NCBI GenBank assembly: GCA_039096225.1 | Contig: JBBPEB010000021.1 | Span: 620,001 to 684,000, forward strand | Reading direction: 5' to 3' | DNA from: Blastocystis sp. Blastoise | Taxonomy: Eukaryota > Sar > Bigyra > Opalinata > Blastocystidae | Length of the DNA stretch: 64,000 bases | Shown: in pieces, positions 1,366 through 59,370 of the stretch | How positions within the stretch are numbered: the stretch's first letter is position 1 | Layout of the letters: every line of letters begins with the position of its first letter | Position numbers and translations under genes: made by a program | The notes under the pieces: generated by a model | What the model saw: the letters and a program-made list of their open reading frames with translations, nothing else | The model's database searches: none | What the model was told of the DNA's origin: nothing

Positions 1366-4300
1366 ATGAATCGTAACCAATCTAATGATAGTAAAATACA
1401 AGAAAACTTTGAAAAGATCAAAACTGATAAACTATCAATTGATATGTTTGATTTAGTCAAATGTATTGGACATGGAGCCTACGGGGAAGTAATTCTATTT
1501 AATCATAATACCACTTATATTAATCTTATGTATATTTATATATTTATAGGTTTGGCTAGCGCAAAAGAAACAAAATAATGTTGTATTTGCTATTAAAGTG
1601 ATTAATAAACGAAATGTGATCAAAAGCAATACAATCAAACAAATTCTAACAGAAAAAGAAATCATGCAGGTACGCGCTGATGTTTTTTTATCGTTGACTT
1701 TTTCTATTTGATATCTTTTGCTAAATGTGATGGATATTATTATAACTAATTATATATATATATATAGACTGTGAAGAATCCATTTATTGTTCGATTACGT
1801 TATGCGTTTCAAGATAAAACTCATTTATATTTCGTTCAAGATTATTATAGCGGTGGTGATTTATTTACACTAGTGGAAAAACAACGTTATTACCGATTCT
1901 CTGAAGATCATGCTAAATTTTATATATCTTTATTGTTATTATTATTTTTAAAAATTGTATTCTGTATCTATTTATAATTTCTTAATGAATCTGAACGCTG
2001 CTGAAATCGTCTGTGCTATTGATTATTTACATTCAAAAAATATTATATATCGGGACTTGAAATTAGAGAATATATTATTATGTATGGATGGTCATATTAT
2101 ATTAACTGATTTTGGAATGAGCAAATATATATTAGAAGGTGAACCTCCGTCAACAAGTATGGTTGGAACACCTGAATATATGGTATATATATATATATAT
2201 ATATATATATATATATATATATATATATATATATATATTCTATTTTTATATGTATATATTTATATTATGTTTTATTTCCTTTTTTTTCATTCATATATAT
2301 ATATATATATATATATATATAGGCTCCAGAAATATTGACACATCAGGGACACGGTAAACCTGTCGATTGGTGGGCTTTTGGTATATATATATATATACTT
2401 GTTATGCATTATATATATAACTATAATATATATATATATATACTTGTTATGCATTATATATATAACTATAATATATATATATATATAGGTATATTACTAT
2501 ACCAGTTACTCGTAGGCGTGCTTCCATTTGATGGTGAAACATCCGAAGTATATATATATATATATATATATATATATATATATATATATATTTACTAGGA
2601 AATATTTGCAAAGATTCTTCATAAAACAGTTGTTTTCCCGCCATCTCTATCGTATGAAGCACGTGACCTTCTGAAACGGCTTTTAAATAAGGTATATATA
2701 ACTATATATAACTATATTTAGCTATCTATAACTATGTTTATAACTATATATAACTATATATGTAGAATCCTGATTTACGTCTTTGTTCCCGCGATGGTGC
2801 CCGCGAAATCATGAATCATTCATTCTTTAAAGGTATATATATATATATATATATATATATATATATATATATATATATATATATAGGTACTAACTGGCTA
2901 AGCATTAGTCGTCGTGAAATATCTCCTCCATTGTTTAATAATAATAACCGCGGGAATGCAGATACTATGGATGAAGTGTCGAATTCTATAGGAACACCAT
3001 CAACAATGAATAATCAAGGACAAAATTCTGATTCCCTTGATTATTCTACAAATTCTATGAATACTGTTCCTAAAGGGAAACCGCCAACAGAGCAAAACCC
3101 GCCAAAATCAGGAGTTCAAAATCAAAACATTGTCTCCGTTTTAAGTACTAATAAAGTATATATATATATATGTATATGTATATATATATATATAATTAGT
3201 ATTCCAGGTCACAAGATGTTTTCGCTCAATTTTCCCCCCTTGTCGAAGGAACAGAAAAGTATATATAAACATAACTATATATAACTATATATACCTATAT
3301 AATTATATATATAGAAATACTTTGAAAACGTTATTATCTTGTTTATTTTTAACATGGTTTAAATATGATAATGAAGAAAAAACATGGATATATTTATTAA
3401 GAAATAATCGTGGGAATATATTACCTGAAGGAACACCTATAGATATTCACGGCGATTTAATAATAAGAAATGGTCATTCCGATATTAGTCATGTATATAT
3501 ATATATATATATTTATATTTATATTTATATATAGTATAATTCTCTTAAAGAATTACTGAATATAATTACTGATGAAAAATATGATGTGAATAATATTTAT
3601 GGAATTATCGATAAATGCCGGTATAATCTAGATATTCCCGCGATTTTATTCGAAGGAAATCAATGTTCATGTAAATGGACTATAGACGTGTATTTATATA
3701 TATATATATAATTATATAAGTATATATATAGTATTCAAGAGACTACCTTAAGAGTTGGAGAGGGAGAAATTCAATTAATTTATAATGATGATTATGAAAT
3801 TCAAGAATTGAATATTCGCGGGGAATTCTCATTTCCTACATACTTTAAAGGAATTAATGATGACATTGGAATCAATAAAGTATATAAAGAATTATATATA
3901 TATATATATATATATCAATCTATAGGAACGATTATATATGTATATATATTCGCAAATAAAATCTCTATCACTTCCTTATTTATATGAACAAGGTATATAT
4001 ATATATATATATATATATATATGTATATATAGATTTCGAGTCCATTTGGGGTGAGAATATACAGTTATTCTTGCATACGAAGAATCTATATACATATAAT
4101 AGTATATATATATAATATATATATACATCTTCTTATGAATAGAAATAAGATATATATATATGTATATATAGATATATATAGTTTATTGAAGGATATTGAT
4201 ACGGGAATGATAAAAAAACCAGGCGAAGTACTTAATATTCAACAAATAAATAAAAATCAAGTATATATATAATAAAACACTTTTTAAAGTATATTCAATG

Positions 4301-5400
4301 CATATATAATAATAATAATATTATTATATATAGATACGTTATACATTTAAAATAATTGGAACACAATTTGGACCTCTTTTTGGAGAACCTGATACTATTC
4401 CTAGTATATATATATATATATATGATAATATATATATATTATTTACTATAGATACAAATCCAGTACTACCTTCTTCTTCTTCTTCTCTTCCCCAGTGTTA
4501 TATAAGTGGATATATATATATAAATTATACACAAACATCACTTGTTTCTATTAATGGAGATCTTTATATCTATAAAGATATTTGTGTTCCTGAGTCACAT
4601 GTCAATCTTCTACTGGTATATATATATATCTAATAATAGTACATTTTATTAGGATTTATGGAAAGTTATTGAGAATAGTATTCCAACAATGCCCCTCCTT
4701 TCTCAAACGGACTTACTGACTCTATATAATACAATGGTCAGTCATATTCCTATTCCTATCCCCTCTCTATCCTTTGTATATATATATATATAATTATTAT
4801 TATTAATATAATAATAAGAATAAGTATAAGTATAAGAAAATATTAAATATGATAATAATTATAATAATTATAAACAAATTATTATTCTTAGAATAATATA
4901 ATACCAATATATATACATGTATTACAAGATTTCATTATATATATAGATAACCTTTATTTGTATGTATATGTCATTAATTCTCCATTCATTCAGCTCACGT
5001 GATATTGCTGTTAATTATGTAACGGCATTTTATTATACATTCAAAGGAAGAGAAGAAACAGTATATATGCTATTATTATTATTATTAAATTATTGTTATT
5101 ATTATAATATATTATATTAATATATTATTTAATATTATATAGCCATTACAACAATGGTTTTTAGTTCGTTCTTTTATTTGTAAATTAATTGATAATTTAT
5201 TTACTACAAATGCTGGTCAAGTTAAATCACATTTGTATATATATATAGAGTATTATATATTTTTGATATAGTTTATTTCATACTTTATATATAATACTAA
5301 AACTATTAATATATATTACAATATATATAGTGAAATACTATTTAATTGGATTGAATCACAACTTCTTCAAATTTATTTTAAAACTCCAATTTTATTATAA
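1366..5400 (+). CDS. AGC-family Ser/Thr protein kinase with long unrecognised C-terminal part
   Basis: The first ~330 residues are a complete AGC-type kinase domain spread over many short exons (1366-1488, 1550-1669, 1768-1923, 1997 onward). Visible motifs: glycine loop [16 protein letters not shown] (ATP lysine), IYRDLKLEN (catalytic loop with the YRD typical of AGC kinases), LTDFGMSK, activation segment [14 protein letters not shown], then [15 protein letters not shown]. After HSFFKGTNW comes an AGC-like tail ([20 protein letters not shown]). Reading then continues through clean GTATAT...TATAG introns past 3300 ([44 protein letters not shown]-like stretches) to TAA at 5398-5400. I do not recognise this second part. 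If the intron at about 3259-3314 is not removed, the kinase stops near 3267 and the rest is a separate gene, although I see no good start for one. One kinase intron is of the U12 AT-AC type. PKC/S6K-like kinases are the closest subgroup by eye. Confidence 0.8.
1924..1996 (+). other. U12-type AT-AC intron in kinase gene
   Basis: This 73-nt intron has no AG at its 3' end. Donor ATATCTTTA at 1924, branch-like TTTCTTAAT at 1978-1986, terminal AC at 1995-1996, with 11 nt from branch A (1985) to the end. Removing it in phase 0 joins AKFY to [12 protein letters not shown], exactly the alpha-E helix text expected of an AGC kinase. Without it the frame runs into a stop at 1975-1977. Confidence 0.85.
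2397..2486 (+). repeat. 45-bp direct tandem duplication in kinase intron
   Basis: Two back-to-back copies of a 45-bp unit beginning acttgttatgcatt (2397-2441 and 2442-2486) lie inside the GT-AG intron at 2381-2488. They look identical by eye, so the duplication is recent. The intron also carries (TA)n on both sides. Confidence 0.8.
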
Positions 5401-58400: not shown

Positions 58401-59370
58401 TGAATGATATTCAAATATGTAAGACATGTTAAAGAATATATATATGTTATTATTATATATAATATAATAAAATAGAATAAATTGAATAAGAAATAGAATA
58501 AGAAATTGAATAATAAATAGAATAAGAAATTGAATAATAAATAGAATAATAAATAGAATAATAAATAGAATAATATATAGAATAATACTATATTCAAAGG
58601 ATATATCAATATACTGTATAAAATAATGTTCACAGAATGGTTGTTGTGGAGATAATACTTCGTTTAATTTAGATACATAGGATTCCTATATATATATAAT
58701 AATCATTTTTATTATTATTATTATGATAATAATAATAAAGATAATAAAAAAAAAAATAATAATAATACAATAAAATAGCAATAATAATATATATACAGAT
58801 CCTAAAAAAGATTCTTTCCTTTTTGGTACTTTAATAATAACTTGAATATTAAATTGATCATCAAAAGCAGAATAAAAAACACTGTGATCCGTCTATATAT
58901 ATAAATATATATAAATATTTATAAATATATATAAATATTTATACATATAAATACATAAAAATACATAAAAATACATAAAAATACATATAAATAGCATCCT
59001 ATTTAAAAAAATAATAATAAATCAATAAACAAAAAAAGAAACATAATAAATGAATACTTTTTTAATTAAAGAATGAATTTGATATCTATCGAAAAGAATT
59101 TGTCGAGACTCAAAATGACAAAAACCTTCTTGTTCTAAATTTCTATGTAATATCGAAAGATTAAAAAAATAGGAATAATAAGCTCAGCTATATACTTATA
59201 AAAATCTTGTTGTGGTTCATTGTTTGAAGAACATAAAAAAATCTAGTACAATGAATTATGATATAAATGGTAAATACATCGTTTGTGTTTGAGTTACTAT
59301 GAACTGAGGTATCATTAGAACCAATCGTAGGCATTTCATAAAGCCAATCATTTTGAAACTGAGACAACAT
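55410..59370 (-). CDS. DYRK-like pseudokinase with long Asn/Ser-rich C-terminal tail
   Basis: Start MLSQFQNDWLYEMPTIGSND at 59370. Kinase fold: ESRQILFDRYQIHSLIKKTD (where a glycine loop should be, no GxGxxG), IQVIIKVPKR (beta-3 Lys kept), ESYVSKLNEVLS (alpha-C), EYHSFVCIVYEKLYMTLNEL (DYRK-like hinge). The catalytic loop reads NCVYSVLSLEHLLIKN in place of HRDLKPENIL, and the DFG position reads LLSLTSIYTN. APE is PPETLFTN, followed by NEKFDIWSLGCILVYQLL, then QYLGIPSTSFIE (DYRK-like). So the catalytic Asp and the DFG Asp are absent. From about 57140 to 55410 a single exon encodes Ser/Asn/Ile repeats (ISNDISNDIS, long poly-Asn). One N-lobe intron is U12 AT-AC. Stop TAA at 55410-55412. Probably a scaffold or regulator (inference). 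Confidence 0.75.
58419..58604 (-). other. U12-type AT-AC intron in pseudokinase gene
   Basis: On the minus strand: donor ATATCCTTT (the full consensus, at 58604 going down to 58596), branch-like TTCTTTAAC (58436-58428, branch A 58429), terminal AC at 58420-58419, 10 nt from branch A to the end; 186 nt, phase 0. Splicing joins HYFIQYID to IFEYHSFVCIVYEKL, the expected kinase hinge text. The intron body is a tandem AATAGAATAAGAAATTG-like array. Confidence 0.88.

Follow-up and report, generated by a model that had tools for sequence, protein, structure and literature searches.

Four AT-AC introns in a 64-kb protist window very probably belong to the U12 type, in a genome with hardly any minor introns of another subtype

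A window of 64 kb (C24:620001-684000), taken from a very AT-rich protist assembly of 33.3 Mb and 34 contigs, holds four genes that are each interrupted by an intron beginning with AT and ending with AC (Table 1). These genes encode an AGC-type protein kinase, VPS50/syndetin, NUP85 and a divergent DYRK-like kinase, and the names, given in an original prediction made on this DNA, agree with the Pfam matches of the spliced products. The same prediction had located the introns exactly in coordinates, strands and starts; all end in AC, and phase 0 has been borne out for the four of them. The AT content of the window is 78%, and 110-120 GT-AG introns were modelled in it across model versions. As argued below, the four are very probably genuine U12-type AT-AC introns, removed by a minor spliceosome of the same genome, in which minor introns are almost wholly AT-AC. 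The evidence comes from the letters and the genome (sequence features, domain continuity, genes for small nuclear RNAs (snRNAs) and CENATAC, and genome-wide counts), from which splicing at the junctions is predicted.

The donor ATATC(C/T) is combined with a terminal AC in the four introns. When compared with the donor consensus, introns 2 and 4 fit in full, intron 1 has an allowed T at +6, and intron 3 departs from it at +8 (A). Position +5 is C in 4/4 and not the G that marks major-type AT-AC introns. A branch motif resembling TTCCTTAAC is found shortly upstream of every 3' end; these are the predicted motifs, and counting the terminal AC they leave 10, 12, 9 and 9 nt to the intron end, where 10-13 nt had been stated. 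Retention of intron 1 would shift the reading frame, and retention of introns 2 and 3, both multiples of three in length, would introduce a stop. Intron 4 is also a multiple of three and contains no stop, so that the reading frame by itself is no proof of it. The bulk of intron 3 is a (TTA)n run; within introns of the window there are long microsatellites of the types (TTA)n and (TA)n (e.g., 51750-52085 and 45270-45450). In a sequence of 78% AT, motifs alone are weak evidence, and coding context and genome counts are decisive. With a generic U12 matrix the pair counts of the window at scores of at least 15 were the same as those of shuffled sequences, and such matrices were dropped as a sole test because their signal is not distinguishable from chance in AT-rich sequence.

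Table 1. Positions of the AT-AC introns, their host genes and the minor-spliceosome genes. Plain numbers refer to the window, except in the L040 row, where they refer to that locus; C4, C13 and C21 are other contigs.
Feature	Position	Strand	Details
Intron 1, AT-AC U12-type, phase 0	1924..1996	+	73 nt; ATATCTTTA...TTTCTTAAT, 10 nt to end, AC; AGC-type protein kinase gene
Intron 2, AT-AC U12-type, phase 0	44698..44868	+	171 nt; ATATCCTTA...TTTCTTAAT, 12 nt to end, AC; VPS50/syndetin gene
Intron 3, AT-AC U12-type, phase 0	51732..52133	+	402 nt; ATATCCTAT...ATTCTTAAC, 9 nt to end, AC; NUP85 gene
Intron 4, AT-AC U12-type, phase 0	58419..58604	-	186 nt; ATATCCTTT...TTCTTTAAC, 9 nt to end, AC; DYRK-like divergent kinase gene
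AGC-kinase gene with intron 1	1366..4633	+	ends approximate; gene model recovered pieces only
VPS50/syndetin gene with intron 2	44033..49001	+	model: intron 2 and 14 GT-AG introns
NUP85 gene with intron 3	49718..53120	+	model: intron 3 and 14 GT-AG introns
DYRK-like kinase gene with intron 4, long N/S-rich tail	55410..59370	-	model: intron 4 and 9 GT-AG introns; 5' end approximate
U6atac gene (L002)	C21:544821-544937	-	Rfam match
U11 gene (L003)	C4:1684165-1684293	-	Rfam match
CENATAC	C4:1257772-1257978 and 1259766-1259852		profile positions 1-71 and 298-326 of 330
AT-AC introns of L040 (C13:1253001-1259500)	1110-1192, 2849-2916, 4053-4111, 4832-4898, 5328-5397		gene model

The conserved text that splicing was said to restore is recovered in the four genes, a Pfam match spanning the junction in each, most weakly in NUP85. 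The spliced AGC kinase reaches 243.6 bits with Pkinase over a stretch that includes the intron 1 junction, across which its alignment with PKC-beta II (HAVFYAAEI) has no gap. In VPS50, Vps54_N (88.1 bits, residues 79-288) extends across the intron 2 junction, and Syndetin_C (59.5 bits) is matched elsewhere in the protein. The Nup85 match of the spliced NUP85 product amounts to 25.1 bits (residues 268-437), of which the part upstream of the intron 3 junction alone gives 21.3; the domain support at this junction is modest. Intron 4, flanked by QYID and IFEYHSF, lies within the kinase domain of its host: Pkinase scores 58.2 bits when spliced and 49.6 bits when the intron is read through, which costs profile positions 15-61, and the alignment with DYRK1B is ungapped across the junction.

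The intron, rate and phase figures rest on a home-made gene model whose initial training set was this window. Its first version could not reach genes truncated at the ends of a stretch, later versions allowed partial genes, and the last one added a relaxed donor and branch motif to them. In the window the model selects introns 2, 3 and 4, and it took none of the GT-AG U12-type, AT-AG and GT-AC candidates offered to it, in agreement with the original prediction, which had noticed no clear GT-AG U12 intron there. Nine decoy motif sets were also offered in the window: seven gave no intron, one joined the three true acceptors to different donors, and the remaining one returned intron 3 shifted by a single base. 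A sample of 15 stretches of 10 kb, picked regardless of introns (145 kb readable, as L048 is half masked), yielded no introns from GT-AG U12-type, AT-AG or three decoy sets under the first model; the retrained model likewise placed none in window and sample from GT-AG U12-type and two decoy sets.

The bias toward AT-AC that had been noticed in the window is also seen genome-wide. The pattern ATATCCTTN{35,65}TTCTTAAYN{4,12}YAC has 62 matches (60 donors, because two pairs of matches have a common donor) against 9 in the reversed control, and its GT-AG counterpart (GTATCCTT...YAG) has 4 against 2. Among these four, two are one repeated sequence, and in another each of the three reading frames contains a stop beside the junction. 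A convincing GT-AG U12-type intron has been found in L036 (C26:709479-709545, minus strand), where an iron-alcohol-dehydrogenase match scores 31.1 bits spliced and 20.7 bits read through; GT-AG minor introns therefore exist, but are rare. The same 3-kb locus and strand also receives AT-AC introns from the model. When 30 of the 62 AT-AC places were fetched, an AT-AC intron was set by the model at 23 of them (at L008 with a different acceptor). The AT-AC introns found are 57-402 nt long.

In the sample, the final model gives 3 AT-AC and 175 GT-AG introns (3/178, 1.7%, 0.35-4.8%). One of the three lies in NAGLU, with its junction within a 301-bit domain; another in a steroid-dehydrogenase-domain gene, taken here for TECR, with its junction covered by a ubiquitin-like match that falls slightly short of its cut-off; and the third in a glucosidase-II-beta-like gene, with its junction outside the matched stretch. 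The window has 4 AT-AC among 124 introns, the kinase intron having been added by hand; comparison of the two rates gives P about 0.16, and pooled they give 7/302 (2.3%, 0.9-4.7%). Extrapolation to the genome gives roughly 690 AT-AC introns (140-1,950). The minor introns probably number several hundred and make up about 1-3% of the total. The density, which had been called unusual, is so when compared with human (0.276%; PMC10639083), but not when the window is compared with its own genome. Both properties, the density and the preference for AT-AC, therefore characterize the genome and not this window in particular.

Phase 0 is found in 17 of the 22 modelled AT-AC introns that lie outside a multi-copy family described below (including one in L036 whose branch motif is poor), and in 18/23 when the kinase intron is included. 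The proportion among major introns is 155/295 (p 0.018), and the survey average is about 22% (PMC10639083). Sixteen of the 23 scored introns come from pattern-search loci; window and sample supply the other 7, and 6 of these are in phase 0. With regard to the major introns (e.g., 2183-2322), the donor GTATAT is used by 194/295, G at +5 occurs in 25/295 and GTATC[CT] in 0/295, these shares being partly built in because the starting donor matrix favoured GTAT and gave C a low weight; the test of GT-AG U12-type candidates is independent of that matrix. Two U1 genes (L057 read) show the canonical 5' end AUACUUACCU. Near their ends, 1/295 major introns contain CTAAC and 8/295 CTAAT, and a U12-like branch motif is found there in just 9/295.

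The genome that contains the window also encodes several parts of the minor spliceosome. U11 (62.9 bits) and U6atac (63.8 bits) exceed their Rfam gathering scores, and in the U12 candidate 19 bases over the branch-pairing core (AAACUAAUGAGUAAGGAAA) are identical to the Rfam consensus. CENATAC (CCDC84, PF14968) is represented by two exons (41.2 and 30.7 bits), both over the cut-off. In human cells CENATAC promotes the splicing of AT-AN minor introns, which are retained when it is lost (PMC8280824). According to the proposed mechanism, the U11 5' end (AUAAAGGG) would pair with the donor CCUUU, plus the following AU in some donors, and U12 (GUAAGGAAA) would pair with the branch motif TTTCTTAAY; the U4atac/U6atac.U5 tri-snRNP (small nuclear ribonucleoprotein) together with CENATAC would then support A-type (AT-AN) introns.

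Two of these RNAs differ from the consensus in the bases that face the donor. The Rfam U6atac consensus reads UGAAAGGAGAGAAGG and the gene here UGAGCCGAGAGAAGG, three bases being changed. The change falls in AAGG, the box whose usual partner is CCTT of the donor. For the donors AUAUCCUUUAU, AUAUCCUUAUU, AUAUCCUAUAU and AUAUCUUUAUU, the computed pairing energies are -2.0, -1.3, -0.3 and -2.7 kcal/mol with this gene, and -6.4, -5.4, -4.5 and -3.0 kcal/mol with the consensus. In U11, the 5' end AUAAAGGG has one base changed from AAAAAGGG, whereby pairing becomes stronger with two donors (-6.6 vs -5.2 and -3.4 vs -1.9) and stays equal with the other two. This lead on altered recognition is based on one U6atac and one U11 gene. 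A search with the U6atac consensus 19-mer and up to 3 mismatches found three places (this gene and two that are unlike U6atac downstream), and the control also gave 3.

Some observations weigh against the proposed U12-type reading and the counts that go with it. The snRNA search suggested originally succeeded for U11 and U6atac, nearly so for U12 (46.8 bits, under a gathering score of 53), and gave no U4atac match genome-wide with Rfam at E<=0.001. A loose U4atac search gave a best score of 29.7 bits (E 0.045) and also matched 11/14 controls; the control genomes are prokaryotic (11 of the 14 named) and therefore no test of minor snRNAs. A designed U4atac pairing pattern had 0 matches and a relaxed one had 1 against 3 in the control, the pairing of that match with U6atac being no better than with shuffled letters (35% of 200 shuffles equal it); the two weak U4atac candidates sit on different contigs. 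Moreover, the sole U6atac found reads GCCG for AAGG and by computation pairs less strongly with the donor; a title cited in PMC3584512 states that donors are activated in vivo only through base pairing with U6atac. As for the model, it never picked kinase intron 1, it missed 7 of the 30 fetched places (in L007 and L030 both sides appear, by eye, to be coding in phase 0), and its earlier versions gave 0 AT-AC and 139 GT-AG introns (first) and 2 and 178 (stricter motif) in the sample; the interval on the density is wide.

Two other explanations concern the introns themselves. Removal by the major spliceosome is highly improbable: U2-type AT-AC introns are known, and their sodium-channel examples have G at +5 (PMC2831892), a position at which the four introns have C. 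The failure to find U4atac would suit such introns; on the other hand, the U12-like branch motif near their ends is shared by 9/295 major introns, and U11, U12 and U6atac are present. More improbable still are chance matches in AT-rich sequence, a notion favoured by the closeness of the motifs to the base composition and by the stop-free, three-fold length of intron 4, and opposed by the excess of 62 over 9 matches, by the domain continuity in 4/4 genes and by the lack of decoy introns elsewhere. The U12-type identity proposed originally is supported by the donor, the branch motif, its short distance to the acceptor, the Pfam matches across the junctions and the minor-spliceosome genes.

The cause of the AT-AC bias is a separate matter. 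The major donor GTATAT has GTAT in common with the GT-type minor donor, and hence a GT-AG minor intron would readily turn into a major one, a route that would be closed to AT-AC introns; such conversion is the likely cause, and minor-to-major conversion has been reported for 74 GT-AG and 5 AT-AC clusters (PMC2831892). Alternatively, the biases toward AT-AC and phase 0 could stem from a recent gain of minor introns in the lineage, as proposed for Blastocystis, which is possible but falls short of being probable. The phase 0 share of 18/23, high beside the major introns and the survey, and the AT-AC introns of a multi-copy gene family (5 in L040) speak for it, although the major introns likewise lean to phase 0 (155/295), and the phases come from gene models, 16/23 from pattern-search loci. 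A rather unlikely idea is that the minor spliceosome has become practically restricted to AT-AC introns with a changed donor recognition, both systems being separated by the first base, A or G. With a U6atac devoid of the box that pairs with CCTT, the choice of the donor would fall on U11 and CENATAC, and the major system would have moved to GTATAT donors with its canonical U1.

The intron class itself is known, and Blastocystis provides a close precedent; what is new is how far the bias goes, together with the distribution of phases and the change in U6atac. As in known U12-type systems, the donor ATATC(C/T)T is combined with a TTCTTAAY-like branch near a terminal AC, and U11, U12, U6atac and CENATAC genes are present. 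Unlike them, GT-AG introns are nearly missing here, the branch is mostly TTTCTTAAT and not TTCCTTAAC, the donor-pairing box of U6atac is changed and U4atac was not found in the genome search. Physarum polycephalum has over 20,000 minor introns, against the roughly 690 (140-1,950) AT-AC introns extrapolated here. Like the present genome, this protist, whose expanded minor introns are cited in PMC10639083, combines numerous minor introns with altered signals. In Blastocystis ST1, 346 of about 35,400 introns (about 1%) are minor (PMC5608401), with AT-AC in 196/253 (77%), phase 0 in 124/253 and a mean length just under 42 nt (PMC5608401; PMC10639083). Both genomes have hundreds of minor introns, mostly AT-AC, with a high phase-0 share; in the present genome there are hardly any GT-AG minor introns, 18/23 AT-AC introns are in phase 0, their lengths are 57-402 nt and the window has 78% AT, and the subtype bias looks more extreme. 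If confirmed, a compact genome in which nearly all minor introns are AT-AC, CENATAC is encoded and U6atac is altered would lend itself to testing two open questions, why minor introns have AT-AC and GT-AG subtypes and what role CENATAC plays for AT-AC. It would also add to Blastocystis another lineage with minor introns that prefer phase 0.

Finally, 19 of the 60 AT-AC pattern donors fall in one multi-copy family of long many-exon genes (match list read by eye). The possibility that these repeated matches represent a transposon was dropped, as the copy read at length is an open many-exon gene; no Pfam match was found in that copy. Other copies (L012, L013, L015, L016, L018-L022, L025 and L026, of which L018 and L019 are the same copy as L040) contain 1-3 AT-AC introns per 3-kb piece. 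In the 6.5 kb modelled at L040 there are 27 GT-AG introns and five AT-AC U12-type ones, the latter distributed over the three phases.

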